From the NCBI GenBank assembly GCA_017517605.1, contig JAFWYQ010000029.1, positions 1-32,631 on the forward strand: 32,631 nt of DNA, in the 5' to 3' direction. This document shows positions 7,383 to 28,612 of the stretch, one piece after another. The notes under the pieces were generated by a model. That model was given only the letters and a program-made list of their open reading frames with translations. It did not search any database and was not told where the DNA came from. Within the stretch, counting starts at the first letter, position 1, and the number at the start of each line of letters is the position of its first letter. A program made the translations under genes and the position numbers. The DNA comes from Bacteroidaceae bacterium (GTDB taxonomy: Bacteria; Bacteroidota; Bacteroidia; Bacteroidales; Bacteroidaceae).

Positions 7383-8393
7383 TTATTTGACGTTCTTTAC
7401 TTTAATCAAATATTCAGCAATCTGTACGGCATTCAGTGCAGCGCCCTTCTTGATTTGGTCACCTACAATCCAGAAGGTCAATCCGTTTTCGTTAGCCAAG
7501 TCCTTGCGGATACGTCCTACATAAACAGGATCTTTGCCGGCAAGGAACAGCGGCATGGGGTATTCCTTTTCTGCCGGATTGTCCATCAATACCAAACCTT
7601 CGCCCTTGGCGAAAGCTTCGCGGGCTTCTTCCGGAGAAACAGGACGTTCGGTTTCCACCCAAATGCTTTCGGAATGTGAACGAAGAGCCGGTACACGTAC
7701 ACACATGGCACTTACCTGAATGTCAGAGTGCATGATCTTGCGTGTTTCATTGAACATCTTCATTTCTTCTTTCGTATAACCATTGTCGGTAAATACGTCG
7801 ATTTGCGGAATCAGGTTGAAAGCCAATTGGTAAGCGAACTTGTTGACAGTAGCCTGCTTGCCGGCCAACACTTCGCGATACTGTTCGTACAATTCGTCCA
7901 TAGCGGCAGCACCCGCACCACTGGCAGCCTGATAAGTGGCTACATGCACACGCTTGATGTGTGAAAGGTTTTCAATGGCTTTCAAGGCTACTACCATCTG
8001 GATGGTCGTACAATTAGGATTGGCAATAACACCGCGTGGACGATTCAGAGCGTCTTCTGCATTGACTTCGGGAACAACCAAAGGTACATCCGTATCCATG
8101 CGGAATGCGCTGGAATTGTCAATCATGACAGCACCGTATTTGGTGATGGTTTCTTCAAATTCTTTTGAAGTACCGGCACCGGCAGAAGTGAATGCGATGT
8201 CTATATCTTTGAAATCATCGTTGTGCTGAAGAAGTTTCACTTCCAATTCCTTACCTCTGAATGTGTATTTTCGTCCGGCACTACGTGCAGAACCAAATAA
8301 AACCAATTCATCCAATGGGAAGTTTCTCTCATCGAGCACACGTAGGAACTCTTGTCCTACGGCTCCACTAGCACCAACAATTGCTACTTTCAT
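7383..8393 (-). CDS. asd: aspartate-semialdehyde dehydrogenase
   Basis: The enzyme reduces aspartyl phosphate to aspartate semialdehyde with NADPH, the branch point to lysine/diaminopimelate, threonine and methionine. The Rossmann start [18 protein letters not shown], the catalytic Cys128 in NPNCTT and the active-site segment [15 protein letters not shown] are all present. The length of 336 residues is standard. It is monocistronic, transcribed divergently from the antiporter, and ends at the shared terminator. Confidence 0.96.
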
Positions 8394-8485
8394 TTTTCTT
8401 TCTATTTTAGTATTTAATGTATCTTTTTATTCGTCTTTTCTCCGACTTTGAATTACCTTGGAGGTAAATCCTACGAAATTGCTTG

Positions 8486-8493
8486 CAAAAATA
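8486..8493 (-). promoter_or_regulatory. putative -7 box for asd
   Basis: TATTTTTG on the minus strand matches TAnnTTTG. It is 93 bases upstream of the asd start, which would give a long leader. A clear -33 box is missing. Confidence 0.35.
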
Positions 8494-8536
8494 GTACATT
8501 TAGAAATAAGACGTATGAAAAATGGAACTTTTTTCT

Positions 8537-8544
8537 TAAATTTG
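8537..8544 (+). promoter_or_regulatory. putative -7 box for the antiporter unit
   Basis: TAAATTTG matches TAnnTTTG and lies 33 bases before the antiporter ATG. The -33 box is not recognisable. The asd and antiporter promoters would be about 45 bases apart in a divergent arrangement. Confidence 0.4.
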
Positions 8545-8576
8545 TCGATAAAATGATATAAATCTATCCAATCCTT

Positions 8577-10727
8577 ATGAATATCTTGAGTCTTGGCATA
8601 CATTTTCCCATAACGGATCCTACTTGGATCTTTTTCTTGGTGCTGATTATTATCCTGTTTGCCCCTATTCTGTTGGGACGTCTGCGGATACCCCATATCA
8701 TCGGAATGATTCTGGCGGGGGTTGCCATTGGCAAGTATGGATTCAATATCTTGGAACGTGACAGCAGCTTTGAACTTTTCGGTAAGGTGGGTATCTATTA
8801 CATCATGTTCCTGGCCGGCTTGGAAATGGACTTGGAGAACCTGAAGAAGAACATTGGAAAGGCTTTCTTGTTTGGGGTCCTCACATTCTTGATTCCTTTT
8901 GTTGTCGGTATGTGGGTTGGAGTTTCGGTACTTCATTTTACTGTACCCGCTTCGATACTTCTTTCCTGTATCTTTGCTTCTCATACGTTGGTGACCTATC
9001 CTATAGTGGGTCGTTATGGCATGACCCGTAACGATGCTGTGTCCATTTCCATCGGAGGTACCATGTTTGCCCTTACCGTTGCCCTGTTCGTGTTGGCGGG
9101 TATCTCGGGGATGTATCGGGGTGAGTTGGAATCCAGTTCCTGGATTATCTTTTTGTTGAAGTGTGTGGGCTATTGTGCGTTTGTCATTTTGGTGTTCCCA
9201 CGAATCGGCCGTTGGTTTTTCCGTACATACGAAGACAATGTGATGCAATACATCTTTGTGCTTTCATTGGTGTTCTTGAGTGCGGCTCTGGCAGAGCTGG
9301 CAGGATTGGAAGGCATCTTCGGCGCTTTCCTGGCCGGCTTGGTGCTGAACCGCCTGATACCTCATGTTTCTCCATTGATGAACCGTACGGAGTTTGTGGG
9401 GAATGCTTTGTTCATTCCTTATTTCCTGATAGGAGTGGGGATGCTTATCAATCTCGGAGCCTTGTTTAATGGAGGTAACACATTGATGGTTGTTGCGGTG
9501 ATGCTGGTGGTAGCTACCACTACGAAGTGGGTGGCGGCTTTGCTTACCCAATGGATATGTCGGATGAGTCGGGTAGCCAGACAGATGATGTTCGGGTTGA
9601 CCAACGCCCATGCAGCCGGTGCATTGGCAATGGTGATGGTGGGTACCAAGATAGAAGTGGCGCCCGGCCAATTCCTGATGAATGAGGATATGCTGAATGG
9701 TATAGTCATACTGATACTTTTCTCGTGCATCGTGAGTTCGATTACGACAGAACATGCCGCCCGTACGATGGCACTTTCTGAAGACAGTGATGTGGGGGAC
9801 AAACGCAAGAAGGAGGACGAACGCATTCTGGTGGCGATATCCAATCCCGAAACCGTGGAACCTTTGATGAACATGGCTTTGCTGATGCGCGACCCCAAGT
9901 CCAAGCAAGACCTGTTTGGAGTCAGTGTGGAAGTGGAATATGACGAGGTTGAAAAGCAGCGAAAACTGAATCAGCGCCGGAAGAATCTGGAAGAAGCGGT
10001 TCGTCTGGCTGCTGCGGTAGATGTGCCGATGAAGACCCGATGCCGTTTGAGTACCAATATCGTTTCAGGACTCCTGCATACCATCAGCGAAAGCAATGCA
10101 TCTGAACTGGTGTTGGGGTTGCACCACAAGCATGGTTTGTTGGACTCGTTCCTCGGTAACTTCACTCAAGCGTTGCTGAAGGGGACTTACCGTCAGATTA
10201 TGATTGTGAAGAGCCTGATGCCTGCCAATGTGTTACGTCGCATCGTGGTGGCGGTTCCTCCCAAGGCCGAATACGAAGCCGGTTTCTACAAGTGGGTGGA
10301 ACGGTTGGCACGCATTGGCGGACAACTCGGATGTAGAGTACATTTTTGGGGCGTAAAGGATACGCTGGAACGCCTCAAGGGATATTTGGACAAGTTTCAT
10401 AGCGGAGTGCGGGCGGAGTATTCGGAATTGGACAGTTGGGACGACTTGCTGCTGCTCACCGGACAGGTGTCATACGATCACCTGTTGGTAATCGTCAGTG
10501 CCCGTAAGGGTTCCATCTCTTACCAGACCTCTTTCGAGAACCTTCCGGAGCAGATAACCCGCTATTTTTCCAATAACAGCTTGCTGTTGGTTTATCCGGA
10601 CCAATTGGGCGACCCGCAGGAAATCATTTCATTCTCCAGCCCTCGCGGACAATCGGAGAATCGTATATATGATAATGTAGTACGTTGGTTCTACAAGTGG
10701 TTCAAGAAAGGAGAAGAACATGATTGA
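8577..10727 (+). CDS. CPA2-type cation:proton antiporter with C-terminal USP-like domains
   Basis: This is a predicted inner-membrane Na+(or K+)/H+ exchanger. The first ~390 residues form about twelve hydrophobic helices with family features such as [35 protein letters not shown] and [14 protein letters not shown]. The cytoplasmic remainder (from about residue 410) resembles tandem universal-stress-protein modules (for example [20 protein letters not shown] and [17 protein letters not shown]). The 716-residue length is typical for Bacteroidales KefB-like proteins carrying such tails. The 3' end overlaps the next ATPase gene by 8 bases, implying translational coupling. Ion specificity cannot be read from the sequence. 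Confidence 0.9.
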
Positions 10728-11680: not shown

Positions 11681-12514
11681 ATGCATGTAGAATTAGGAAA
11701 ATATAACCAATTGGAGGTAGTCAAGGAAGTCGACTTCGGCCTTTACCTCGATGGTGGCGATGACGGTGAAATCCTGTTGCCTACCCGTTATGTGCCTGAA
11801 GGATGTCGTCCGGGCGATATGCTCAATGTATTCATCTATCTCGACAACGAAGAACGCTTGATTGCCACTACTCTGGAACCGTTGGTGCAAGTGGGTGAAT
11901 TTGCTTGCCTCGAGGTGGCTTGGGTGAATGAATACGGTACATTTCTTGACTGGGGGTTGATGAAGGACCTGTTTGTACCTTTCCGCGAACAGAAGATGAA
12001 GATGCTGAAAGGACATCGCTATGTGATTCATGCTCATGTGGATGAAGACAGTTATCGCATCATGGCATCTGCCAAGGTGGAACGCTATCTCTCCAAGGAT
12101 ATGCCTCCTTATGAAGCCGGTCAGGAAGTGGATGTGATGGCATGGCAACGGACAGATTTGGGCTACAAGGTGATAGTGGACAACCGGTATAGCGGATTGC
12201 TTTACCGCAACGAAATATTCCAACCGCTCGAACCGGGAATGAGGTTGCGGGCGTATGTCCGTCAGGTGCGTCCCGATGGCAAGATTGACTTGTCGCTTCA
12301 GCAGGATGGCGGCCGTAAGGTAAAGGATTTCTCTACAGAACTGTTGGAGTATATCAAGAATCATGACGGATATATTCCTCTTCACGACAAGAGTGACGCC
12401 GAAGAAATCTACGAGACATTCGGCGTGAGCAAAAAAACGTTCAAGAAGGGAGTGGGGGACTTGTACAAACGTCGTCTCATCGTGTTGCAGGAGGATGGAA
12501 TCCGCTTGGCATAA
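11681..12514 (+). CDS. CvfB-like S1 domain RNA-binding protein
   Basis: This 277-residue cytoplasmic protein contains successive S1-type OB folds: VELGKYNQLEVVKEVDFGLY, EVAWVNEYGTFLDWGLMKDLFVP and KVIVDNRYSGLLYRNEIF to KIDLSLQ. A C-terminal winged-helix-like segment follows (SDAEEIYETFGVSKKTFKKG). This layout matches the CvfB family, whose Gram-positive members bind RNA and affect virulence gene expression; the role in Bacteroidales is unknown. An in-frame ATG at 11531 would add 50 low-quality residues over the DUF2007 start. The promoter at 11656 and the family start argue for 11681. Confidence 0.88.
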   Translation: MHVELGKYNQLEVVKEVDFGLYLDGGDDGEILLPTRYVPEGCRPGDMLNVFIYLDNEERLIATTLEPLVQVGEFACLEVAWVNEYGTFLDWGLMKDLFVPFREQKMKMLKGHRYVIHAHVDEDSYRIMASAKVERYLSKDMPPYEAGQEVDVMAWQRTDLGYKVIVDNRYSGLLYRNEIFQPLEPGMRLRAYVRQVRPDGKIDLSLQQDGGRKVKDFSTELLEYIKNHDGYIPLHDKSDAEEIYETFGVSKKTFKKGVGDLYKRRLIVLQEDGIRLA

Positions 12515-14351: not shown

Positions 14352-14786
14352 CTAAACGTTCTTATACCTTGAAATATATTGCTTGAGATATACGGATAAA
14401 GTAATCATACATCCAACCATCAAGAGAGTTACGAGTGCATAAGCAATAAATCGCAATGTGGAAGAATTAAAGGAAAGGTAAATACAAAAGAAAATGAATA
14501 AACTAACATCAATAAATATTATTGCCATCAGTGCTCTGTTCATATTCTTCATGCGTTTCATATATTCATTAGCAAAGCGTAAATCGCTCGTCTTAACAGG
14601 GTCAATCTCCTCGGAATATCTAATCTCATCTGTAAGTTTTCGTATTGCCTGCTTATTACTCTCCATAAATGAGTACACAACAGTAAAGATTGTAATAGCA
14701 ATACCTAAAACGCCTAACAACAGTGAAATACATATATTGTCAATGGACGTAAAAAACGAATCAGGTAAGTTGTTAAACAGCTCCAT
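14352..14786 (-). CDS. predicted three-helix membrane protein
   Basis: I do not recognise this family. The 144-residue product has a hydrophobic helix at about 18-40 and a charged cytoplasmic or periplasmic segment at about 42-84 with heptad-like character (KQAIRKLTDEIRYSEE, NEYMKRMKNMNRA). Two closely spaced helices follow at about 85-104 and 111-134. Its start overlaps the end of the upstream 309-residue gene by 14 bases, so the two are probably translated together. The composition is AT-rich compared with the housekeeping block. The layout resembles small membrane effectors paired with a soluble sensor, but that is only an analogy. Confidence 0.65.
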   Translation of the reverse strand: MELFNNLPDSFFTSIDNICISLLLGVLGIAITIFTVVYSFMESNKQAIRKLTDEIRYSEEIDPVKTSDLRFANEYMKRMKNMNRALMAIIFIDVSLFIFFCIYLSFNSSTLRFIAYALVTLLMVGCMITLSVYLKQYISRYKNV

Positions 14787-15702
14787 TTGTTAAATAGTTT
14801 GTTATTACATTATTAAAGTTACGGACCATCGTTCGTATGTTGTTGATATCTTGCAAGTCCTGAAAATCTACATTTTGAGAATACCCGTATTTTGACACCA
14901 AGGTAGACTGCAAATTTCCATCATCGTCCAACTCTTGAGTAATAGTATCTGTGGTTGCCCTATTATTTCGATCCTTGAAAAATTTAATCCGCCTTTTGAT
15001 TCCTTCTACCACACTTGCATTATCATTGATGATTTCTTGAGCTTCATCTGTAGTAACATTTTCATATTTGATAGAGTGGGTAGTCTTAGTTGTCGCACTA
15101 ACTATCTTATGATGAACAGCAATATGTTCATTATCTTCATTTTCTAAATATGCAAACGAAACTTCTACTTCAGGAATAATATCAACGCCATTAAGGGATG
15201 TTGGCAAAGTAAACTTAAAAGGAAGTTTTAAAATCTTATTTATTGTGTATTTTATAGTGTTTATTATATCGGAATCATCCTTGTTTGGTGTGTCATAGAT
15301 TACGACTATCCATTTATTACTCCATGTGTTATTTATGTGTTCTATTACAGGGTACAGCAAAGCATAATTTTTAGCACTTCCGATTCTATCATTGGGCGTT
15401 ATTGATACTTCCGGATTCCGATCTTTTTTTAGATACAAATCATCAAAACCCTCTCTATACTCTTCTACGCAAATAATTATGGATGGTGTTTGTCCTATAT
15501 TGCACAAATCGTAATGTATGTTTTTAATCACCTTAGATTTGCTTTTGCCACGAAATGGAATTCGAAGCTTTTGATTTGGTGCAAGATTGTTGTATATATT
15601 AATATCGTTAATAACGTCTTGTCTTAGTGCTATACATTGTTCATGGTGAGAGTCCAAAACGCTCGTAACTAATGTTGGGTATTTTATTTTTAGTGTTGCC
15701 AT
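14773..15702 (-). CDS. uncharacterised protein, partner of the membrane protein
   Basis: I do not recognise this 309-residue soluble protein. It has alternating strand/helix segments (SIIICVEEY, KWIVVIYDT) suggesting an alpha/beta core. A charged region follows (EGIKRRIKFFKDRNNR), and the C-terminal third is helical and Asn-rich (DINNIRTMVRNFNNVITNY). The ATG at 15702 (MATLKIKYP) is chosen. A TTG eight codons upstream extends the frame to 15726 but lacks support. It is AT-rich, Asn/Ile/Lys-rich and probably acquired. The 14-bp overlap with the membrane protein gene makes a two-gene module. Confidence 0.65.
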   Translation of the reverse strand: MATLKIKYPTLVTSVLDSHHEQCIALRQDVINDINIYNNLAPNQKLRIPFRGKSKSKVIKNIHYDLCNIGQTPSIIICVEEYREGFDDLYLKKDRNPEVSITPNDRIGSAKNYALLYPVIEHINNTWSNKWIVVIYDTPNKDDSDIINTIKYTINKILKLPFKFTLPTSLNGVDIIPEVEVSFAYLENEDNEHIAVHHKIVSATTKTTHSIKYENVTTDEAQEIINDNASVVEGIKRRIKFFKDRNNRATTDTITQELDDDGNLQSTLVSKYGYSQNVDFQDLQDINNIRTMVRNFNNVITNYLTNGAV

Positions 15703-15770
15703 ACTCAATTTGCTTTTGTTCTTCAACGTAATATCGATCTGTTGTAACTTTATTCGAATATGAAAGGAAA

Positions 15771-16651: not shown

Positions 16652-17545
16652 TTACTGCATCATGCCTCGCGCCCCTTCATAAGAGCAACTCTCAGCACCT
16701 ACTTTCTGTGCTTCATTCAGAGCTGTTTCCAAATCTGATTCTAAGAGATTGCATATTCCAAACATTACTTTGTTTTTGAACAAATTATTAATCAAGGCAG
16801 CCGCTGTCCAATCACCTGCGCCTGCGGTGTCAACCACTTTATCATTGGCGACGGGCTCCAAATGCTTCCATCCGGAATTCAGACGGTAACTCAATCCTTT
16901 TGCGCCTTGAGTCTGGATAAACAGCTTATCCTTGTAGCTTTCAAACTGCTCAACGTCTTTAATGCGCTGATCCGAGAACTTAATAACATCAGCCACTTCA
17001 ACACACTGATTGAACCGTTTCACATTTCCTCCTCTGCTGGAAGGTTCAAAGAATATTACAGAGCCTTTTTCCTTGAACAATTCTGCCAATCTCAGAATGG
17101 CAGGTGAAACCCTGTCAAAGAAGAATACCTTTGGCACAAAGTCTATCCTCTCAATCACCCCATTTGCCTGTTTCAGCGTCAGCGACTTGAAGTCCAGATA
17201 GAACCGCCCGATATTGTTGCGCGATTCAAACTTATGCGTGGGAATACCGTCCTTGTTAATGAAGTTACGCTGCACGATCACCGGTGTCTTACCGTCTTGG
17301 GTAGAGACAAAATCAGTGTGTACACGGTGCTTTTTCATGTCATCCAGCACTCTCACCCCGTCTTTCGTTCCATCCAGACGCGCTATGGGATAGGCATCCC
17401 ACCCCATGTAAGAGAGAATCATCATCACATTACCGCATGTGCCACCCACGTAATAGGATATAGGGACTCTTTGCCCGTCCCATATCAAAACATCCAGGCA
17501 AATCAGGCCTGCTCCAACTGCTATATTATTTGTTTCAAGTTTCAT
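16652..17545 (-). CDS. PfkB family carbohydrate kinase
   Basis: This 297-residue ribokinase-fold sugar or nucleoside kinase transfers phosphate from ATP. The substrate-side motif YYVGGTCGN lies at 32-39. The ATP/catalytic motif VVDTAGAGDWTAAALI lies near the C-terminus, with GAGD at 242-245 and the catalytic Asp. The substrate is unknown. The start is 17 bases after the AbiEii stop, within a 14-bp tandem repeat. A sugar kinase is unexpected behind a toxin-antitoxin pair. It fits the SIS-HAD and phosphoribosyltransferase genes farther upstream better, so it may belong to that system. Confidence 0.88.
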   Translation of the reverse strand: MKLETNNIAVGAGLICLDVLIWDGQRVPISYYVGGTCGNVMMILSYMGWDAYPIARLDGTKDGVRVLDDMKKHRVHTDFVSTQDGKTPVIVQRNFINKDGIPTHKFESRNNIGRFYLDFKSLTLKQANGVIERIDFVPKVFFFDRVSPAILRLAELFKEKGSVIFFEPSSRGGNVKRFNQCVEVADVIKFSDQRIKDVEQFESYKDKLFIQTQGAKGLSYRLNSGWKHLEPVANDKVVDTAGAGDWTAAALINNLFKNKVMFGICNLLESDLETALNEAQKVGAESCSYEGARGMMQ

Positions 17546-17565
17546 GATTCAAGTTTCAAGATTCA
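17538..17565. repeat. 14-bp tandem duplication at the PfkB start
   Basis: AGTTTCATGATTCA (17538-17551) and AGTTTCAAGATTCA (17552-17565) differ by one base. The pair spans the AbiEii stop codon and the PfkB start codon. It may mark a joint formed by slippage or illegitimate recombination. Confidence 0.6.
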
Positions 17566-18366
17566 AACTACAGGATTAAGCCTCTCCACCAACTCCGCTT
17601 TCACCTTTTCCCACGCCACCTGAGGGTCATACTCCACCTGTGGCCCAAGAATCATTTCCGTGTCCGTCAAGAATTCCTCATCTTGTAGTTTTCCGTCCAT
17701 ATTCAACAAAAACTCTTTGTATGTTGGCAAGTGAGACGCAGTAAAGCTCAGATACCGCTCATAGCTCTCCATCACCTTCCCTTTATCCAACTCGGGGTGC
17801 ATTGATAGTATCTTCCAAAGGTCAAACAAATCACGTCCTTTTCTCCGCTGATACACAGCCCTCAGCTTCGTTCCTGTCAGTTCAGCCAACTCATAGGTCA
17901 GCACCTCGCAAGCACCTTTAAACCACGAACTATTCACCGCAAAAGGCACTCTTACCATTGGATATACCGAGAAATGCTCCTTGCAGTTAATCTCCACCTT
18001 CAAGTGAATCTCGCCCGCATCCATATCCGTCGGCTGCACCTTGAACACCAGCGTATTGTTGTGCTTCTTCTGCTTCACCACCGGCTCGCCCAGCCAAGCC
18101 AAAGCATCCCGCAGATGGTCAATCGTCTCTTTGATGGGTTCCGCCTGCACTTGTACCAGGTCGATATCTTCCGAGTATCTGGGCTGCGGCTTGAGATACA
18201 ACTTACCCAATGCCGTGCCGCCTCTGAATGCAAGATGCTCCGCAAGAAATACATCGCTATAAATAGACGCTAACGCACGGCAGACTATCAAATCCTGTTC
18301 GATAAATTTATTCACCACCCACGGGGCCTGCTCGCTCCATTCCGTAATATATCGCTCTGGTATCAT
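17563..18366 (-). CDS. abiEii: AbiEii/AbiGii-type nucleotidyltransferase toxin
   Basis: This is the toxin of a type IV-like abortive-infection system. The nucleotidyltransferase core is visible as LAFRGGTALGKLYL and RYSEDIDLVQ, the latter containing the metal-binding Asp pair. The conserved TKLRAVYQRRKGRDLFDLW segment follows. The 267-residue length fits the family. Known AbiEii proteins act as nucleotidyltransferases that modify cellular targets such as tRNA ends and cause growth arrest. The gene overlaps the antitoxin gene by ATGA (18363-18366). Confidence 0.9.
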   Translation of the reverse strand: MIPERYITEWSEQAPWVVNKFIEQDLIVCRALASIYSDVFLAEHLAFRGGTALGKLYLKPQPRYSEDIDLVQVQAEPIKETIDHLRDALAWLGEPVVKQKKHNNTLVFKVQPTDMDAGEIHLKVEINCKEHFSVYPMVRVPFAVNSSWFKGACEVLTYELAELTGTKLRAVYQRRKGRDLFDLWKILSMHPELDKGKVMESYERYLSFTASHLPTYKEFLLNMDGKLQDEEFLTDTEMILGPQVEYDPQVAWEKVKAELVERLNPVV

Positions 18367-19169
18367 AACTCGTCAATCTCTATGGTTTCGTTCACAATAA
18401 TTCTCCATTTGGCGTTTCTTTCGCACCCCTCGCTACTCTTTCCAGCCTTTAAAGGTACATACTGGAGTGCGAAACCGGAACACTTCAACAGACTGTACAC
18501 CGACTCTGCCGCTTCTCCTTCCTCCAGCACCTCGTCCAGAATATAGCCCAGACGCTGCAGACTGGTTACAGGCACTTCCTTCACGAAGTCAGCCCCTAAG
18601 CGCTCGAAATCCAGTTTCTCAGCCAGTTCAGCCAGAACAGTGGCTGCACGCGAAACGCTCCCTGTCTTTGCCTGATACGTCAGCAAATCCACTGCCGTCA
18701 GTTCAGGACACGACACGTTAATGTAGCCCGTCCGCGTCTGCCGCCTCTCCACGTATGTCTCAGGAATATGACTTTTGCAGAAAAAATGCGTAAGGTACTT
18801 CTCTCCCTTCTTGTCACGCATGGCGGGAGGCTCTATCATCACGCTGAACCGCAGCGGAACCTGATGCGAAGCTCCGTGATAACTTGCCGCACTCAACAGA
18901 GCCACATAGTATTTGCGTCCCAGATGGTGCATCATGTCATCCAAGTAAAACGACTGCGGCACAGCCCCGCGCAGCACATACTCATCTGGCACAATGACGT
19001 AGAAGCCGCGCAGGGGCGACATGATCCGTCCCTTGCTCACCTCTCTGGTCAGTGCCCGTGCAATGCTGCCGGCACTCATGTCAGGGAATGCCTGCGTCAC
19101 CTCATCGTGTGTGAAGGTATAATTGCCTCTGAGTGGCTTATCATATATCCAACTTGCAATGCTCGCCAT
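18363..19169 (-). CDS. abiEi: AbiEi-family antitoxin
   Basis: This is the antitoxin and probable autorepressor of the AbiE pair. It has an N-terminal winged helix (YTFTHDEVTQAF, SAGSIARALTREVSKGRIMS, LRGFYVIVPDEY). The AbiEi antitoxin domain follows with LLSAASYHGASHQVP, NVSCPELTAVDLLTY and a C-terminal extension to 268 residues. The promoter upstream carries a TAGACA/TGTCTA dyad, consistent with autoregulation known for the family. AbiEii follows with a 4-base overlap. Confidence 0.88.
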   Translation of the reverse strand: MASIASWIYDKPLRGNYTFTHDEVTQAFPDMSAGSIARALTREVSKGRIMSPLRGFYVIVPDEYVLRGAVPQSFYLDDMMHHLGRKYYVALLSAASYHGASHQVPLRFSVMIEPPAMRDKKGEKYLTHFFCKSHIPETYVERRQTRTGYINVSCPELTAVDLLTYQAKTGSVSRAATVLAELAEKLDFERLGADFVKEVPVTSLQRLGYILDEVLEEGEAAESVYSLLKCSGFALQYVPLKAGKSSEGCERNAKWRIIVNETIEIDEL

Positions 19170-19194: not shown

Positions 19195-19227
19195 CAAAGA
19201 TAGACATTTTTTGTCTAACTTCGCAAA
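19195..19227 (-). promoter_or_regulatory. abiE promoter with operator-like dyad
   Basis: On the minus strand TTTG (19224-19227), 21 bases and TATCTTTG (19195-19202) form a consensus Bacteroidetes promoter. Between the boxes lies the perfect dyad TAGACA-N5-TGTCTA (19201-19217), placed where a bound repressor would block RNA polymerase. AbiEi is the natural candidate. Confidence 0.75.
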
Positions 19228-19280: not shown

Positions 19281-20357
19281 TCAGTCATTATATGCATCAC
19301 CTTTTATCCACATTAAAAAAGTCGTACTCTTTTTGTTCAGTTCATCAAAATCTATATTGTCTTTGTCTATGACATAATCACGGCTGATAACGTTATAAAT
19401 GGCAACTTCATTCTCATTCTCCATCGCAGTCAGAAGCGCACCAACCGACAGGAGTTTGCTAGATAACAGAGCTATCCCATAACAAGCCATCTGCTTCACC
19501 TTTCCCAAAATTTCGTCTTCCGACAGGATAAACCTCGTCAGCAATCTATACAATTCAAAGGGATTACGTTCGTGAGCATAAATGATATTGTCCTTGGCAT
19601 CTTCTTGTTTAAATAGTTCTTTATACTCCTTGATAATCGAATCTGTTCTGAAAGGGTCCAATGATGGATAAGGAACGACGGGGAAATCTTCATCCGGATT
19701 GAAATGTCCCAAAATCTTGTTCCATTTCTCCATTCCGTTCTCTCCCAGCAATGAGATCTGAATCCTTATTCTGTCAGGTTCCGCCTCCAGTCCGATACCA
19801 GGATTAAACTTCACCATCGGTTCTATATCATCTGCTAAATTGATGTATTTAATGCGTCTGTCAATTTCTGCATTCTCAGAAACCATAATAAACAGGTTTT
19901 TATTATTTTGACTTTTGTAGATAGATTTGACCAGATTGAAGTACAACACCTTGGGCAAAGCACTGATGTCCACGATAATGTTATCATAACCGTTTGTCAG
20001 ACTCTCTATCTCCTTGTTCATTATCTTCACGCCCCTGTTCAAATCTTTTTTTGCCCCTATCTTCAATTGGTAGACTGAGGACTGCACCGCACCTTTTTCA
20101 AGCAATGTCTTTCTGGCTTCGATATTCCGCTCTATCATTGACGCATTTGGAGATTTCGTATAGTCGCCAAAAACGATGATTTTGCAGTCAATCTCCGTTT
20201 TTGTTTCCACAAAAGCCCTGAGAACATTATTCATACGTGGGTCAAAGCCCTCACCTATGATGAGCAGGGTTTTACCATGTGGACGATCTGCATCACTCCA
20301 AAATTGGGTGACTTGTTCGTCACCCTCGAACATCACATACGAATCCCAACTTCCCAT
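19281..20357 (-). CDS. uncharacterised Rossmann-like protein of the PRTase/ATPase operon
   Basis: I do not recognise this 358-residue family. The N-terminal half looks Rossmann-like: GKTLLIIGEGFDPR (28-41) gives a strand and glycine-rich turn, IDCKIIVFGDY (56-66) a second strand, and YDNIIVDISALPK (124-136) a third with a possible active or ligand site. The C-terminal half is helical (ELFKQEDAKDNIIYAHERNP, MACYGIALLSSKLLSVGALL). It overlaps the ATPase gene by 25 bases, so the two are tightly coupled. It could be a sensor, a nucleotide-binding effector or an enzyme acting on the product of the operon. Confidence 0.75.
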   Translation of the reverse strand: MGSWDSYVMFEGDEQVTQFWSDADRPHGKTLLIIGEGFDPRMNNVLRAFVETKTEIDCKIIVFGDYTKSPNASMIERNIEARKTLLEKGAVQSSVYQLKIGAKKDLNRGVKIMNKEIESLTNGYDNIIVDISALPKVLYFNLVKSIYKSQNNKNLFIMVSENAEIDRRIKYINLADDIEPMVKFNPGIGLEAEPDRIRIQISLLGENGMEKWNKILGHFNPDEDFPVVPYPSLDPFRTDSIIKEYKELFKQEDAKDNIIYAHERNPFELYRLLTRFILSEDEILGKVKQMACYGIALLSSKLLSVGALLTAMENENEVAIYNVISRDYVIDKDNIDFDELNKKSTTFLMWIKGDAYND

Positions 20358-22192
20358 TTTTCTTCTTTTTTTATCCAGTCAGTCAACTCCCTTATGGTTC
20401 TTTTTCTCCAACCGCCATAGCCTAAGGGCAAAGAGAAAGCGGCACAAATCCAGCGGTTCAGGTAGAACACTGTCCACTCCTTATCCTTCTCGCCTTGCTT
20501 TGTTTCTCTGGTAAACAGCAGATTATTGGCCAGACATATTCTTAATACGCTTTCAAGTTGGGTGTCATCTATCATATTGGTAGTCTTGCCAAAGAGCGTG
20601 TCCACTTCCTTGATGGCAAAACCATTTACTGTACCGTATGAACAACCCAATTGCAACGTCTGGCTCTTACAGAACCCTCCCAGATTGTTGATAAAAGTAA
20701 ATACTCCTCTACCGTACTCTGTCAGCATCCGCTTCAATTTTTTCTTGCACTCGTCTTTGATGAGCCTATCCTGTGTAGCAGCAGACAACAGCAAGGCTTT
20801 ACGGGGATGCAACAGTTTCTGGGTGAGCAATTGTTCATAAAGCACATTGCAGAAGCTGATAAACTGTTCTGTATTATTCGGGGACAATTCTTTCAATGTG
20901 TCCGTTCCGTAATACATCGGATGATTGAAAACTGCAGGTATGATATCTCGGCTTATCTTTATAAGGTCAGCCTTGATATGCTCATTATAAGAAGCTAGTT
21001 CATGCGGGAACATCGGGAACGACGTTTTGAATTCTCGTTGTGCGAACAACATAAGGGCAAAGGTCTGTTCAGCCATGTCCTTAGACGTATCAAAGTTTTT
21101 ATCTATATAGCTCAATAATTCATCATAAAGACCAAATTTCGTAGCAAGGTCTTTCCTGCTGTAATCAATGATTGTCTGATACTGATCGTCAGAAAGTATA
21201 GACAACTGTTCCAATGAGTTGTTCAATTTGATGTCATGTCTGGACAGATTGGAACGCTTCTCCATTATACTTCCCAGCATTTTCTCGAACTTGTTGTCCG
21301 TTCCCAAATGAATGCTGTTATAGTCACGACCTATCATGTCTGTCTTGGGCATCAACTCCTCATAAGTAAACTTATCGTACCGCATGGCCAGCCAAACGGT
21401 ATTGCTGATACGCGTCTCTACCAGTTCCTGCCGCAGAAAGTCAAGCTGCGTCCTAGACAACTTGTGACAATCGTCCAGTTGGAAAATAAAGTCATCTACA
21501 ATAGTTTTGCCCGATATAGTAAAATCCGACGCATGGAGTTCATTCAAAATGAATAATGAATCGTGACCGTGCTTCTCGTCAGTGTTTTCATATGTTTCTA
21601 TGATGTCCGTTATTTGTCGTTCTATTCCTGCAGCCCAGTCAAACAGCTCCTTGGCTGTATGGGGTGTCGGGTTGGGGGCAAACCTGTTCGACAGTTCCAG
21701 CGAGGGATCGAATTCCACTTGTCCCAGCTGTTCATATGCCAGATTCTTCAATTGCTGCAAAGCCTTAATAGCCACCAATGTAAACCGGGCATTCAACAAG
21801 GCAAAAAGCAGCCGTCTGGCCTGTGGTTTGGTGAACACCTCTTCATCTTCCAGATCTGCATAACTCCTGTTCGTCAGCAGATATGCTCCGCATTTCAGTA
21901 TTCTATTGGAAGTGACCACGCCCATACTCTTCAGAGCTTTGAACATCTTATCGTTGTCCTTCTTGTTGTTATGAACCCTGAATACAACTGACGGGGAGAA
22001 ACAACGCATCATCGTTGTCTTTCCACCACCTGGAGCACTGCATATGTAGGTTAAGTTTCCCCACAATGAGCCCCTTTCACTGTATTCCTTCAGAGGATAC
22101 AGCGAATCATCAGATAAGAGACTGACGAATACATCATCCGCTGTCATCTTCTCTGAAGCTCTCATGCTAAATGGATTCTCATACTGCTGCAT
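20333..22192 (-). CDS. P-loop ATPase, ORC/CDC6-like AAA type
   Basis: This 619-residue protein has an N-terminal P-loop ATPase. Walker A is SAPGGGKTT (52-60), and a Walker B-like strand with two acidic residues is FIFQLDD (235-241). A sensor-like strand VWLAMRYD (266-273) precedes a mainly helical C-terminal half. The C-terminal 100 residues have winged-helix-like character and an aromatic/basic end. The arrangement resembles ORC/CDC6-type AAA ATPases that I recall in predicted conflict systems. The start is 2 bases after the PRTase stop. A switch or sensor role powered by ATP is inferred. Confidence 0.8.
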   Translation of the reverse strand: MQQYENPFSMRASEKMTADDVFVSLLSDDSLYPLKEYSERGSLWGNLTYICSAPGGGKTTMMRCFSPSVVFRVHNNKKDNDKMFKALKSMGVVTSNRILKCGAYLLTNRSYADLEDEEVFTKPQARRLLFALLNARFTLVAIKALQQLKNLAYEQLGQVEFDPSLELSNRFAPNPTPHTAKELFDWAAGIERQITDIIETYENTDEKHGHDSLFILNELHASDFTISGKTIVDDFIFQLDDCHKLSRTQLDFLRQELVETRISNTVWLAMRYDKFTYEELMPKTDMIGRDYNSIHLGTDNKFEKMLGSIMEKRSNLSRHDIKLNNSLEQLSILSDDQYQTIIDYSRKDLATKFGLYDELLSYIDKNFDTSKDMAEQTFALMLFAQREFKTSFPMFPHELASYNEHIKADLIKISRDIIPAVFNHPMYYGTDTLKELSPNNTEQFISFCNVLYEQLLTQKLLHPRKALLLSAATQDRLIKDECKKKLKRMLTEYGRGVFTFINNLGGFCKSQTLQLGCSYGTVNGFAIKEVDTLFGKTTNMIDDTQLESVLRICLANNLLFTRETKQGEKDKEWTVFYLNRWICAAFSLPLGYGGWRKRTIRELTDWIKKEEKWEVGIRM

Positions 22193-22194
22193 AA

Positions 22195-23328
22195 TCAGTG
22201 ACGTGTAATTCTGTAGAACAAAGGGTATAGTCTATCTCCCGCCTCTCTCTTGGGTTGCCAGATGATGGGGAGGGAATTGTTTGGTGTGTTATGGTTCAGA
22301 ACAATCGTTAGGGCGCATTGCCTATAACCGAGATAGTAGTCAGTATTGCCTGCTGGATAACTTTCCTTATAGGCCCTAGTCAATGCAGGCTCATTGATAT
22401 ATCGTTTCTGGCTGATGATTTTTTGGATTGCCAACGCTTCCGTTCCTGTGTGACTGGTAAATTTCGCATCTTCATAGAGCATTTGGACACACTCCAACGT
22501 TACATTCAAGTCAGGGTGCTGCTTCTTATACTGTTCCAACATAGCATTAATATGATCCAAAGCACTCTTGGTCGCTATTAGGAAATACAAATGAATGTCA
22601 AAACCGTCAACCAAAAGTTTTTTGAATTCCTCTTTACCGTTAATAGCTTCAAAGAATTTGGGCAACTTCCCTGCAAAGGTTCCATCATCCCTTATCCGGA
22701 TAAACGAGGAGCCACTGGCCGTGAAATCATCAATCAATACGATAGATTCGAATTTCTTTTCCGAACCCTCTACCAAATCTTTACTTTTCTCAAGTTCCTC
22801 AGCCAGTTCTTTGATTTTTGTGTCATCAGGGTAATAATTTGTCAGCACTTGGTCATTATCCAAATAGCTGTTTCTGCGGATAATATCAATATGCGAACCA
22901 TCACTAAGACCGATGAACAGGGTCTTTCGTTTGTGTGACTTAAACTCTGCCGCGTTGTCAAGCCGCTTGTTGTTGTATTTATTCACAGTCAAGCCATGAT
23001 TCCTAAAATCCTTTACCACTTTCTGTCTAATGGCAGGTATAATCTTGGTGCTATAAAGCAAATCAATGAGATGTGAAATCTGGGTTGAGTTAATATAGAT
23101 GATATACTTCTTCACAAACTCATACATAAGTTTCCTGTCATCGATATCTTCAAACTGACTCAGCCAAAGATAAAAGTTCCCCACAAACTTTATGCCAGGA
23201 ATAAACTGGTCATAGGAGTCATACTTGATGTCTGACATCAAATCTATCTCCTTCAAATGCTCCGTAGCCTCAATATCGTCCCATTTCATCAGCTGGGCAA
23301 GGAACTGTTTTGCCAGATTAAATCGCAT
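22195..23328 (-). CDS. phosphoribosyltransferase-like protein (conflict-system type)
   Basis: This 377-residue protein carries a type I PRTase fold. The PRPP-binding loop is SIVLIDDFTASGSSFIR (195-211), with the two acidic residues and small-residue loop of the family. TLFIGLSDGSHID (136-148) fits an earlier core strand and diphosphate loop. The N-terminal ~130 residues are helical and the C-terminus is an uncharacterised extension. Classical PRTases couple PRPP to a base. Here the base or alternative acceptor is unknown. It lies 4 bases after the SIS-HAD gene and 2 bases before the ATPase, so an operon is near certain. Confidence 0.8.
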   Translation of the reverse strand: MRFNLAKQFLAQLMKWDDIEATEHLKEIDLMSDIKYDSYDQFIPGIKFVGNFYLWLSQFEDIDDRKLMYEFVKKYIIYINSTQISHLIDLLYSTKIIPAIRQKVVKDFRNHGLTVNKYNNKRLDNAAEFKSHKRKTLFIGLSDGSHIDIIRRNSYLDNDQVLTNYYPDDTKIKELAEELEKSKDLVEGSEKKFESIVLIDDFTASGSSFIRIRDDGTFAGKLPKFFEAINGKEEFKKLLVDGFDIHLYFLIATKSALDHINAMLEQYKKQHPDLNVTLECVQMLYEDAKFTSHTGTEALAIQKIISQKRYINEPALTRAYKESYPAGNTDYYLGYRQCALTIVLNHNTPNNSLPIIWQPKREAGDRLYPLFYRITRH

Positions 23329-23332
23329 AGGC

Positions 23333-25204
23333 TCAGAATTTGATTTTAAAACCTTTATTTGTCTTTTTTATCTTGCGCAGATAATACTTTACGACATCCA
23401 AACCTCTCAGGTCCCTGGGCGCCAGATTCCAGCAACTATTAGGGTTGCGCGACACACCATCAACACTCAGGGAATAAGGCATGGAAAGCATCTCAAAATC
23501 ATTACCCTCATAATCGCCGCGGTCTCCTATCGCCAACACATCTTCGGAAATATCCTTTACAGCCGACTTGCTTGCCCTAGTGCTGACTACAATATCCATA
23601 GAGTGGCTTGAACTCCACACATGAAGCTTATCCAGTTTATTGGAAAGAATAATTTCATTGCATATTTCGTATGCCTTCATTTTGTCCATACAAGTAAATG
23701 ACAATTGGGTGCTGTATTTTCTGAAGGTTGGCACGAAAGAATAACACTTGATTTCTTTTTCCAGCTTCACCAATTGTTCATCCAACGGAGCGTCCTTAAT
23801 TGCTTCAATGGCGGTAGCGTCATCAGACAGAGTAACAATAACTGCGCCATTATAGCAGCCCAAATAAACTTTCTGCCAATATTCCTTCTGGATAGACTTC
23901 CTCAACAGTTCATGAACTGAACCACCCCGTCCAGTCATGATGGCAATCTTTATTCCATCTGAAAGTAACTTATTCAGCTTTTTGGCAATAGAATCCTCCA
24001 ACTTTTCATTATATCTTGATTTCCTATCCACATTGCAAATGGTTCCGTCATAATCCAGAGCTAGAAGATCGAATTCTTTCTCCCTCAACATTGAAATGAA
24101 CCCATCATACGCATTTGAATACTCTTCATATTCTTTTGCAGGTATCAAAGCCTTGCTTCCAAGCCTTAGTTTCCTACATATTGCCAATTCTTTAGCTGGT
24201 AGTTTAATGCAATCATCACTAATTAGTTTAACGTAATTCAGATGATATAATTCGGTTCCATAGTCAGGGACACCCGGACGTCCGGGGTCTATCCCTCTCA
24301 TGTTTCCAATGGTAGCAACCAACTGAAACGACTTCACCAACAAGTCAATGGTAGCAAGTGGCGTACTGAGTTCTGTTTCAATGCGAACCACATTGACATC
24401 ATCTGGCATCTTGCTTAAAGTCTTATCTGCTAGCGGGCGGTCATTCTCGTTCACCAAAGCCACAATGCAAGAATTTGCCCCCTTTTTGTCAAACCACTGA
24501 TGCCTACCATGTCCAAAGTTACGGTAGTCTGCCATCAAGACAGAACCAAGTGCAGCTTCTGAGAATTTGGATTCCAAATCAACAGCCACTGGCTCGCTTA
24601 AATTGCTATAAAGAACAATGAAGTTGTCTATCTTCGAGAAAACAATTTCATGATTATAACTATAACCTATTCCTTTCTGGATATACTTTGACGGTTTTGC
24701 ATCAAAGAAACAACGGTACATCAGCACAAAGAAGGCTACAAGAGAGTTGGTAGCCAGAAAACCGTCTTTTACAGTAGGAATTGGAAATGTGTGTTTTTTA
24801 AAATCAGTACTATATTTGCCAATAACCTCATCCCACTTGGGGCTTTCACGAAGGCAGATCCCAGTCATATCACCCCTTCCTACTTCCAAACCATGTTGGA
24901 ACGCAATCAAGAAGTCTTTATTTCGCCCCGCTGCACTGAAGAATAATAATTTGCTATCACGTATTACAGTATCAGAATATGTATCAAAAGCTAGAGGTGT
25001 CATAGGAACTGCAAGCCCGCACATCTGCTTATAGAGCATGGCTGCATAGCTTGCCGCACTATATGAACCACCACTTCCGATACAAATCAAGGGGGTACCA
25101 GCATTTAATGAAAAGAAAGAGCGCAATGCCGTCACATCTTGCTGCTCAGCCCACTTTATGGTGCCCGCAAGCTTTTCCAACTCTACTTTGAATGGCTTTC
25201 CCAT
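23333..25204 (-). CDS. SIS-domain and HAD-phosphatase fusion protein
   Basis: The 623-residue fusion has N-terminal sugar-isomerase (SIS) folds. The phosphosugar loop is CIGSGGSYSAASYAAML (41-57), and a second half includes FSEAALGSVLMADYRNFGHG (214-233). The C-terminal Cof-like HAD phosphatase has motif I LDYDGT (Asp384/Asp386), motif II MTGRG (423-427) and motif IV GDRGDYEGND (560-569). All HAD catalytic acids are present. It likely isomerises or senses a phosphosugar and removes a phosphate. The ATG at 25204 (MGKPFKV) is chosen. A longer frame to 25294 would read through the promoter at 25250-25257. It is the first gene of the four-gene operon. Confidence 0.85.
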   Translation of the reverse strand: MGKPFKVELEKLAGTIKWAEQQDVTALRSFFSLNAGTPLICIGSGGSYSAASYAAMLYKQMCGLAVPMTPLAFDTYSDTVIRDSKLLFFSAAGRNKDFLIAFQHGLEVGRGDMTGICLRESPKWDEVIGKYSTDFKKHTFPIPTVKDGFLATNSLVAFFVLMYRCFFDAKPSKYIQKGIGYSYNHEIVFSKIDNFIVLYSNLSEPVAVDLESKFSEAALGSVLMADYRNFGHGRHQWFDKKGANSCIVALVNENDRPLADKTLSKMPDDVNVVRIETELSTPLATIDLLVKSFQLVATIGNMRGIDPGRPGVPDYGTELYHLNYVKLISDDCIKLPAKELAICRKLRLGSKALIPAKEYEEYSNAYDGFISMLREKEFDLLALDYDGTICNVDRKSRYNEKLEDSIAKKLNKLLSDGIKIAIMTGRGGSVHELLRKSIQKEYWQKVYLGCYNGAVIVTLSDDATAIEAIKDAPLDEQLVKLEKEIKCYSFVPTFRKYSTQLSFTCMDKMKAYEICNEIILSNKLDKLHVWSSSHSMDIVVSTRASKSAVKDISEDVLAIGDRGDYEGNDFEMLSMPYSLSVDGVSRNPNSCWNLAPRDLRGLDVVKYYLRKIKKTNKGFKIKF

Positions 25205-25249: not shown

Positions 25250-25257
25250 CAAAGATA
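25250..25257 (-). promoter_or_regulatory. -7 box of the SIS-HAD/PRTase/ATPase operon
   Basis: TATCTTTG on the minus strand is a perfect TAnnTTTG match, 46 bases before the chosen ATG. The -33 region is weak (TTCC). It shares TATCTTTGCAAA with the abiE promoter. Confidence 0.6.
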
Positions 25258-25374
25258 CAACTTTTTCTCGAAATGGAAGCATAAAAATAATCACTACGCG
25301 CGTAATTTAAGCGAATTTAGTCTAAAACAAGACTGTGATATAACAAAGAGAAACGATTTGTGTTGAAAAATGAC

Positions 25375-26887: not shown

Positions 26888-28612
26888 ATGCTGACAATGG
26901 AGATAACACGGCTGATAGAACGGTGCAAGCAGGGGGATGCGGATGCCCTCGGAGAACTGTACAAGGCATACGCCCAGCGGATGAGGGACGTGTGCCGACG
27001 CTATATCAGCGACGAGCAGACGGTGGAGGATGTGTTGCACGATGCTTTCGTGATTATTTTCACTTCGTTCGACAGGCTGCGCGATGTGCGACGTGCCGAG
27101 CAATGGATGATGGCCATCACAAGGAACGTGGCATCGAAATGCAAGGATCATTTGGAGGCATTGCCAACGGTTTCGCTTGAAGAGACGAGCGAGGTGGGAT
27201 TAATTGCCGCCAAGGACGAGGAAAGGGACGTAAGGGGTGTGCCGTTAAGCGAGGTGGTGAGAATGATAGACAGACTGCCGGAGGGTTATGGGCAGGTATT
27301 TCGATTGTCGGTATTCGAGGGCTTGTCGCACAAGGAGATTGCCGCCATGCTGGGCATCGAGCCACATTCGTCATCGTCGCAACTGGCACGGGCGAAGAAG
27401 ATGCTGCGCAAGATGATGCAGCAGTATTGGGTTGCCGGACTTCTGTTGCTACTTGTTCCTATTACGTTCTTCCTGCTCAAAAAAGGAGATACTGCTATCA
27501 AGGATGAAGACGGCGGTGAGCACCAGCCGTGGGCTGTTGTGGCGATACAGAAAGAGGCATCCAAAGAATCGTCGAAAGAATCTCCGACTGACCAGACGCA
27601 GGAACCCGTGATTGTTCATCTGTCAGTGCATCGTACCACTGTCATTGACTTAGACACCCTGCAATCGGTCATTGCCCAAACAGTGGATTCTGTCACGTCT
27701 GATACATTATATAATTTTATAGCCCAAGAGCAGATGGTAACTGATACCATTGGGACGGATACGACAAAGGCTATACGCAAGGTAGAGTTACCGCATTACG
27801 ACATTGCCGACCTGTTCCCCGACAAGCCAACCATCGGCACCAGTCATCAGCGAAAGTGGTCGGTGGACCTCGCATACACCGGAGGCTTTGGCGAGCAGAA
27901 CTATAACCGTCCATACAGCTTCACGGAAATGCCAACGTTAGTCATCAGCGGCCAGCCGCCATCGCCTGTCACCTTCGAGAACTGGAGCGACTATGCAGCC
28001 TTCTTGGCGGACAATCCCGACGACGGCAGGAGTCACACCCGCAGCGTCATCATGAACATAGCCTTGAACAATGCCAATCAGCCAGGTAATGACAAGATTG
28101 TGCGCAAGAGCCACCACTATATGCCAATCAGCTTCTCGTTGGCATTGAAGTATAAACTGAGTAATCGCTTTAGTCTGGAAACTGGACTAAGTTACAGCCG
28201 TCTGAAGTCTGAGTTTGAGATGGGTTCAAACGGCAATACCATCAAAGAGCAGCAGACCATTCACTACCTCGGCATCCCCGTAAAGGGCATCTGCAATATG
28301 TACACTGGCAAGGCGTGGAGCCTCTACGGCAGCCTCGGCGTGACGATGGAAATTCCTATCTATTCGCCGTTCAACACGAACTATTACTTGCATGGTGCAT
28401 TGGAGGCCACGGACAAGACCACCCTTCGCGTCCCGTGGCAGTGGTCAGTCGGCACTGGTATCGGTTTGCAGTACAACCTCACGCCCAGCATTGGACTCTT
28501 TGCCGAGCCAAGTCTGCAATACTACATCCCGACGGGCAGCGACATCGAGACCTACCGCACAGAGCATCCGTTCACATTCTCATTGCCGTTGGGCATCAGA
28601 TTTACGTGGTAA
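26888..28612 (+). CDS. ECF sigma factor fused to TM helix and outer-membrane beta-barrel
   Basis: This single 574-residue reading frame has three parts. Residues ~9-85 are sigma region 2 (DADALGELYKAYAQRMRDVC, TVEDVLHDAFVIIF) and ~118-176 are region 4 (LPEGYGQVFRLSVFEGLSHK, EIAAMLGIEPHSSSSQLARA). Residues 181-197 form one hydrophobic helix. After a Ser/Thr/Glu-rich linker (~198-320), residues ~322-574 show alternating strands of an outer-membrane barrel ending in FTFSLPLGIRFTW with a C-terminal aromatic residue. Bacteroidetes commonly encode sigma factors next to separate membrane-anchored barrel or anti-sigma proteins; here the parts are joined. Release by proteolysis after an envelope signal is one model. 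It is preceded by element A and followed by element B. Confidence 0.85.
   Translation: MLTMEITRLIERCKQGDADALGELYKAYAQRMRDVCRRYISDEQTVEDVLHDAFVIIFTSFDRLRDVRRAEQWMMAITRNVASKCKDHLEALPTVSLEETSEVGLIAAKDEERDVRGVPLSEVVRMIDRLPEGYGQVFRLSVFEGLSHKEIAAMLGIEPHSSSSQLARAKKMLRKMMQQYWVAGLLLLLVPITFFLLKKGDTAIKDEDGGEHQPWAVVAIQKEASKESSKESPTDQTQEPVIVHLSVHRTTVIDLDTLQSVIAQTVDSVTSDTLYNFIAQEQMVTDTIGTDTTKAIRKVELPHYDIADLFPDKPTIGTSHQRKWSVDLAYTGGFGEQNYNRPYSFTEMPTLVISGQPPSPVTFENWSDYAAFLADNPDDGRSHTRSVIMNIALNNANQPGNDKIVRKSHHYMPISFSLALKYKLSNRFSLETGLSYSRLKSEFEMGSNGNTIKEQQTIHYLGIPVKGICNMYTGKAWSLYGSLGVTMEIPIYSPFNTNYYLHGALEATDKTTLRVPWQWSVGTGIGLQYNLTPSIGLFAEPSLQYYIPTGSDIETYRTEHPFTFSLPLGIRFTW

Follow-up and report, generated by a model that had tools for sequence, protein, structure and literature searches.

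Where does the minus-strand gene cluster at positions 19281 to 25204 of a Bacteroidaceae bacterium contig (JAFWYQ010000029.1, assembly GCA_017517605.1) end, and what is it for? The window, meaning the whole stretch of 32,631 nucleotides that was analysed, had a preliminary description made from the sequence alone, which read the cluster as a candidate new conflict system of four genes encoding a SIS-HAD protein, a phosphoribosyltransferase (PRTase), a P-loop ATPase and a protein that it could not place. The fourth protein is identified here as a tandem CARF sensor, and the cluster was found to continue past 19281 through AbiEi and AbiEii to a PfkB-family kinase, giving five core genes with an embedded AbiE cassette in place of four genes. 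The five genes keep one order in many phyla, and in two pairs of loci the PRTase, ATPase and CARF genes (hereafter the triad) were exchanged at the DNA level as one block. Here it is proposed, with a probability of about 50%, that they form a threshold-gated immune system of two modules.

Gene order and exchange of the triad

A SIS-HAD alignment, scanned against 84,980 species genomes, returned 319 loci (a pattern-limited count), of which the best 80, 79 of them distinct, were kept and typed with profile hidden Markov models for each protein. The order SIS-HAD, PRTase, ORC-type ATPase, CARF, PfkB, all in the same orientation, was found in 68 of the 79 loci, including one (L113) in which the ORC gene reads in two pieces; among the remaining 11, PfkB is inverted in L089 and ten end at a contig edge. 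The kept loci are those most like the query, and the lower 239 may therefore be less regular. According to the record titles, carriers include Bacteroidota, Acidobacteria, Chloroflexi, Nitrospirae, cyanobacteria, myxobacteria, planctomycetes, Armatimonadetes and proteobacteria; since the same set recurs in so many phyla, the gene association is not due to chance. The preliminary description would have been contradicted by genes found mostly apart; in the loci examined the set stays together.

The SIS-HAD gene is also present in 18 plasmid records, nine of them typed as conjugative, and the CARF protein in 17 of the 18. Sixteen plasmid loci were examined (L175 typed from annotation), and 15 have the triad, with PfkB nearby in 14 of the 15 and a NADAR gene in eight; NADAR is rarer in the genome loci (2/79). 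The sixteenth, L054, has only a divergent SIS-HAD relative (8146-9840) adjoining a sugar ATP-binding cassette (ABC) transporter and a ROK regulator, possibly a metabolic ancestor; it is the single exception to the finding that the loci seen are not core sugar catabolism loci, the other arrangement that the preliminary description had taken as incompatible with its reading. Some plasmid loci are irregular or have further genes. In a Rhizobium plasmid (L053, 4660-10727) PRTase, CARF and SIS-HAD are each in pieces and the ORC frame is open, and a Sinorhizobium plasmid (L046, 3548-15818) has two PRTase-ORC-CARF triads, the second PRTase in two frames, around one set of SIS-HAD, PfkB, NADAR and helix-turn-helix (HTH) genes. 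A Sphingomonas plasmid (L044, 6245-7120) has nucleoside 2-deoxyribosyltransferase-like and NADAR genes adjoining the five-gene system, which are more enzymes of N-glycosidic bonds. IMG/VR gave no match to a lone SIS-HAD query; with the alignment as query, three contigs carrying the system were found (L136-L138); two have the complete set of five, whereas L138 has NADAR and four of the genes, and no PfkB in the stretch examined. A search of 50,697 phage records gave no match to the system.

Within Bacteroidales, some parts of the operon resemble the window far more than others do: in L062, SIS-HAD is 47% identical, the triad 34-38%, AbiE 97% and PfkB 88%. Comparison of L062 with L066 showed 97.8% DNA identity as far as base 4086, shortly before the PRTase start at 4130, no blastn match from there on to 8258, and 96.6% from 8259 (CARF ends at 8272). 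Likewise, identity between L073 and L074 is 95% as far as 8217, just before the PRTase start at 8222; an unmatched part follows, and identity is 97% again from 12350 (CARF ends at 12319). A forced alignment of the exchanged part gave about 40-65% per 150 bases, and the triad proteins are 34-47% identical inside flanks of 97-99%. Most of these Bacteroidales loci are metagenome-assembled genomes; an assembly error is an unlikely cause of the pattern, given two independent pairs with nearly the same boundaries and mixing in other loci too. Around the whole operon, most Bacteroidales loci differ from one another in their flanking genes, which indicates that the complete operon is mobile as well.

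Rank correlations of pairwise identity were calculated for 18 Bacteroidales loci and 42 others (500 permutations, p floor 0.002). Within the triad, rho was 0.90-0.91 in Bacteroidales and 0.85-0.90 in the others, and between PfkB and the triad in Bacteroidales it was -0.11 to -0.02. In the 42 other loci, SIS-HAD and PfkB correlate with each other at 0.79, and the two modules at 0.55-0.60. The three proteins of the triad move together and vary together, and hence probably assemble into a single cognate complex. SIS-HAD and PfkB need not match the triad, as expected if they are linked to it through a small molecule.

The five proteins and the candidate CARF ligand

The PRTase (gene 2, 22195..23328, minus strand, as are all genes of the cluster) matches PF24390 (PRTase-CE) with 97.8 bits against a curated cut-off of 27, and the ATPase (gene 3, 20333..22192) matches PF24389 (ORC-CDC6-like) at 1.6e-23 (83.8 bits, cut-off 27), which bears out the mention in the preliminary description of such families in predicted immune systems. 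The phosphoribosyl pyrophosphate (PRPP) loop that it had pointed out, VLIDDFTASGSS, is present (LIDDFTASGSS), with D200, D201 and G206 invariant in 63 sequences; the Walker A motif SAPGGGKTT (core APGGGKT) is present too, and Walker A and B are intact, with P54, G55, G57, K58 and D240 invariant (n=15 sequences). A type I PRTase fold was sought with a model of gene 2, and Foldseek returned no match at E<=0.001. The name PRTase-CE is reportedly used by Nicastro et al. 2023.

Gene 4 (19281..20357) is a stand-alone tandem CARF protein, matching PADLOC CARF6 and having the CARF fold: structural realignment of its model put 18 CARF proteins on top. Foldseek had placed KCC/NKCC regulatory domains and KaiC first and the first CARF at rank 46; these candidates were rejected because of deviations (rmsd, root-mean-square deviation) of 17-22 Å and of that realignment. 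No effector domain was seen in gene 4, and a PDB sequence search with the CARF alignment gave nothing meaningful. Conserved residues are the feature observed that bears on a possible binding of cyclic oligoadenylate by this protein. Searched against 393 genomes of the order, the window CARF protein matched itself only, which reflects rarity in that sample, divergence, or both. A remote search matched eight genomes, where four strong matches and one weak match adjoin an ORC-type ATPase, two weak ones lie in short examined stretches that show neither ORC nor PRTase, and one is unconfirmed.

Known CARF ligands come from Cas10. This was searched for in 28 carrier genomes, hand-picked from 80 and including that of the window. 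Over the cut-off, Csm1 was found in 1/28 and Cmr2 in 0/28, and at E<=1e-3 in 3/28 and 2/28, respectively; the window genome (80.5% complete) had no Csm1 or Cmr2 match. A type III CRISPR ancillary effector would have Cas10 in the same genome, and this is not what most of the carriers checked show. The rarity of Cas10 among them rules out Cas10-made cyclic oligoadenylate, made in the same cell, as the general ligand. Gating by a nucleotide that the CARF protein would bind is thus proposed by analogy, Cas10 being absent from most carriers checked.

The SIS protein with a C-terminal HAD-IIB phosphatase domain (gene 1, 23333..25204) matches Pfam Hydrolase_3 (3.6e-8) and the NCBIfam Cof-subfamily (4.8e-9, under that model's cut-off), and its relatives in the PDB are SIS and HAD proteins with weak E-values (best 1.3e-5). 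HAD motifs I-IV (DxD, S/T, K, GDxxxxxxD) are intact, as in the Cof/HAD-IIB type, and the SIS part is predicted to be phosphosugar-binding or isomerase-like. Among 14 sequences D414, D416, G417, T418, G455, R456, G590 and D591 are invariant and K575 is near-invariant, and S and T interchange in motif II. These residue numbers count from the longest possible open reading frame (ORF), starting at 25294; the gene start was set at 25204, the choice also made in the preliminary description, because homologues begin at the corresponding methionine (near-invariant M31). Counted from there, D414 and D416 are the Asp384 and Asp386 of the preliminary description, which are both present as it had stated.

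The kinase (gene 5, 16652..17545) matches PF00294 at 1.6e-17 (64.2 bits, cut-off 25.8), and its best NCBIfam match is ribose-1-phosphate kinase (9e-12, under the cut-off). The PfkB signature DTxGxGD is intact as DTAGAGD, with D239, G242, G244 and D245 invariant in 34 sequences.

Front ends, cassette slot and neighbourhood

Among relatives, PF24390 was found over its cut-off in 15/393 genomes of the order and PF24389 in 5/61, and 11 PRTase-CE/ORC regions were examined. Six of them (L176, L177, L178, L180, L182 and L183) have the triad, with a third gene of 302-339 amino acids, and a DNA methyltransferase adjoins it in 6/6; neither SIS-HAD nor PfkB was found in these six by the profiles used, nor was the triad shown by them in the other five regions. 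In each of the six, CARF6 is matched by the third gene, which also aligns with the system's own CARF profile at 96.7% probability over 195 columns, and the ATPase and PRTase profiles of the methyltransferase version align over most of their length (99.4% and 99.3%). One case, L177 (genome G001), lies within the window's own genus, and a search with the methyltransferase-version PRTase matched three plasmid records. Csm1 was found in 0/6 of these genomes over the cut-off and in 1/6 at E<=1e-3. Because the triad exists without SIS-HAD and PfkB, the ligand of its CARF protein does not generally depend on them.

Outside Bacteroidales, PfkB directly follows CARF, with a gap of -23 to 68 bases in 46/46 loci with both ends resolved. 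In Bacteroidales a cassette often occupies a slot between the two genes; of 24 loci, 23 are informative (L065 is cut too early). The slot holds AbiE in 15/23, and this is also the window type. Of these 15, L059 does not differ from the window, three (L057, L064 and L067) end within AbiE or shortly after it, L068 has a split AbiEii, and in L082 AbiEi and AbiEii are fused into one frame. Two loci have PDC-S01 (L063 by scanning, L075 by clustering), L073 and L074 have AbiL, and the slot is empty in L070, L072, L077 and L078, of which L077 is the copy in Prevotella lacticifex. In the window, AbiEi (18363..19169, PADLOC 3.5e-86) and AbiEii (17563..18366, 1.9e-106) are intact, as in AbiE toxin-antitoxin systems; they differ from these in being nested in another operon, as one close clade, and 17 bases separate AbiEii from PfkB. 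Within 251 genomes of the family, both matches to the close AbiEi clade (>90% identity) lie in the slot and none elsewhere; 13 longer remote matches (34-46%) have no triad or PfkB within the 2.7-3.8 kb examined, and three further ones are very short and uninformative. The fifth core gene, PfkB, lies beyond AbiE, so the idea that AbiE merely adjoins a finished operon was rejected. AbiE and the modules that replace it resemble a nested back-up or guard, but may be passengers.

The defence islands that the preliminary description had suggested were evaluated by comparing the flanking ORFs of 51 non-Bacteroidales loci (the closest two on either side, longest-frame rule; 144 of 183 used) with 113 control ORFs, taken from carrier genomes in 14 stretches of ten kilobases. 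At 1e-15, 188 PADLOC families were counted among the neighbours and 10 among the controls (tallies of families, not of proteins), in agreement with that suggestion. Among the matches listed, neighbours include AbiEii, type I and type IV restriction, PbeA, GajA and mads proteins, and the controls BrxH, DpdF, DrmD and mad3. Beside the system in a Bradyrhizobium plasmid (L050, 2501-4543) there are Multiubiquitin, ThiF and DUF6527 genes, likely another conflict system.

In the window, genes 1 to 4 are separated by 4 and 2 bases, followed by a 25-base overlap of genes 3 and 4, as first described. The Bacteroidetes-type -7 promoter element has the consensus TAnnTTTG. Such an element, TATCTTTG (25250..25257, minus strand), lies before gene 1, with 45 bases between it and the ATG at 25204 and no clear TTTG at the usual distance upstream. 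A second TATCTTTG (19195..19202, minus strand) before AbiEi has a TTTG 21 nt upstream (19227-19224) and an inverted repeat, AGACA-AAAAA-TGTCT, at 19216-19202, forming a promoter/operator-like site. The single promoter of the preliminary description can therefore be claimed for the four genes and was rejected for the whole cluster. Directly after PfkB, on the minus strand, is a 150-amino-acid ORF (16628-16176) with HATPase_c_4 and HTH, the C-terminal part of a RecG-like regulator; the "broken regulator" noted earlier is this ORF, apparently a remnant. Such a remnant cluster also follows PfkB in three other loci, one of which is L059. Farther away, a 317-amino-acid ORF (14773-15726, minus strand) has no convincing family match, and a 574-amino-acid ORF (26888-28612, plus strand) combines an extracytoplasmic function (ECF) sigma-70 factor (regions 2 and 4) with a C-terminal outer-membrane beta-barrel domain (OMP_b-brl_2), either an unusual fusion or a read-through.

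Proposed mechanism and its rivals

In the proposed immune system, module A (PRTase-CE, the ORC/CDC6-like ATPase and the tandem CARF protein) would both sense and act: the ATPase would detect infection or assemble into a complex, the CARF protein would bind its nucleotide and license that complex, and the PRTase would break or remake the N-glycosidic bonds of nucleotides, starving phage and cell. Attack on nucleotides at this bond, or their remaking there, is the most likely activity, judging from the chemistry of the family and from what PRTase-CE is said to do. Module B (SIS-HAD and PfkB, often with NADAR on plasmids) would be the ribose- or sugar-phosphate side, which makes, clears or reports a metabolite setting the threshold. 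The Abi cassette nested before the kinase in Bacteroidales (AbiE, AbiL or PDC-S01) would plausibly be a back-up, and the methyltransferase at the same place in sister systems suggests that the front end probably signals to the triad when to act. The preliminary description had put forward the ATPase as a switch and a PRPP- or sugar-phosphate-derived nucleotide as what is made or destroyed, and both are still proposals. Several points weigh against this two-module system. Cas10 is absent from the window genome and from most carriers checked; AbiE, with a promoter-like site of its own, may be a passenger; and the nucleotide-degrading role given to the PRTase follows what one paper reportedly describes for PRTase-CE. 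In Bacteroidales, moreover, SIS-HAD correlates with the triad (rho 0.56-0.59) more than with PfkB (0.18, p 0.09), so that module B as a unit rests on the other phyla.

The same enzymes could serve biosynthetic signalling, with SIS-HAD, PfkB and the PRTase making a new ribose-derived messenger that the CARF protein reads to switch the ATPase, and the PRTase acting as a producer instead of an effector. Taken together, kinase, phosphatase, isomerase-like domain and PRTase resemble a small pathway, SIS-HAD and PfkB co-vary in the 42 loci, and the CARF protein without a visible effector domain and the scarcity of Cas10 would fit as well; Ter systems are also said, in a passage of PMC7824862, to make a nucleoside-like signal with PRTases and HAD phosphoesterases. 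However, the triad exists beside DNA methyltransferases without SIS-HAD and PfkB, and this explanation is considered unlikely. Even less probable is that the system stabilises plasmids and islands or excludes rivals, with block exchange representing incompatibility types: the 18 plasmid records (nine conjugative), the transposition, conjugation and partition genes adjoining the operon, and the operon kept whole within differing flanks would suit mobile-element conflict or addiction, whereas the enrichment of anti-phage families among the neighbours does not. The most improbable appears to be an operon with a metabolic task (nucleoside or sugar salvage, or stress) beside which defence genes hitch-hike, despite the housekeeping relatives of every enzyme family and the divergent SIS-HAD alone in a sugar ABC transporter locus; a patchy spread (the pattern-limited 319 loci in 84,980 species genomes), triad exchange at 34-47% protein identity within 97-99% flanks, Abi cassettes inside, a CARF sensor and alternative methyltransferase front ends all argue against it. 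A further reading, tentative and rather doubtful, though better placed than these three, is that of a CRISPR-independent CARF platform, in which a sensor-effector cassette of PRTase, ATPase and CARF is exchanged in place like restriction specificity genes and plugged into varied front ends. Instead of cyclic oligoadenylate, such a platform would bind a new ribose-derived nucleotide, and its inner slot would hold exchangeable second-line Abi effectors.

The PRTase-CE, ORC-CDC6-like and CARF6 families are already known. The window genes match both Pfam families of the predicted PRTase-CE/ORC-CDC6-like conflict systems, whose relatives stand with CARF6 and DNA methyltransferases, whereas here the front end is SIS-HAD and PfkB. 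Among type III CRISPR CARF proteins, the closest fold to gene 4 is Can1 (6sce); in contrast to that type, gene 4 has no visible nuclease domain. The signal of Ter-type modules is read by ligand-binding proteins. Their likeness to the present system lies in PRTases and HAD phosphoesterases making a nucleoside or nucleotide-derivative signal, as outlined in the same part of PMC7824862; their partners differ from the set found here, which is SIS, PfkB, ORC ATPase and CARF. A passage of PMC12715507 describes Chp, a CARF-HAD phosphatase effector that likewise joins HAD phosphatase and CARF in one immune pathway and whose activation depletes ATP and IMP; Chp is a single fused membrane protein activated by Cas10-made cyclic tetra-adenylate, whereas in the present system two different proteins contain HAD and CARF, and the CARF protein moves with the PRTase and the ATPase instead of with the HAD protein.

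ORC-Cdc6 ATPases are discussed in a section of a BREX paper (PMC12839542), and PRTase, NADAR and CARF are each treated separately in portions of PMC7824862 and PMC5512222. In excerpts from the DefensePredictor paper (PMC13092281), NADAR and HAD occur in other systems, and the legend of its Fig. 4 abbreviates PRTase and MTase among the domains present in E. coli defence systems that were validated, the PRTase possibly belonging to a relative of the triad. Nucleotide-targeting immune effectors are the subject of Nicastro et al. 2023 (gkad879), according to its entry among the references of PMC10853773. No open-access title or abstract found was on the five-gene set, in a search that the likeliest earlier descriptions (Burroughs 2020, Makarova 2020, Nicastro 2023) fall outside. 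The candidate new conflict system stands as a conserved multi-gene conflict system in a defence setting; the five-gene set with tandem CARF, the block exchange, the Abi slot and the alternative front ends appear to be new, though with some uncertainty.

The block exchange is a natural experiment on which proteins must match each other, and, to judge from the alternative front ends, restriction-like and metabolite-watching systems may have a portable immune module in common. The sensor half, exchanged between strains as one block, holds a sensor of the type that reads CRISPR signals, though most hosts checked lack Cas10. With CARF sensors in a setting largely without Cas10, what else CARF domains sense becomes a question testable with five clonable genes.

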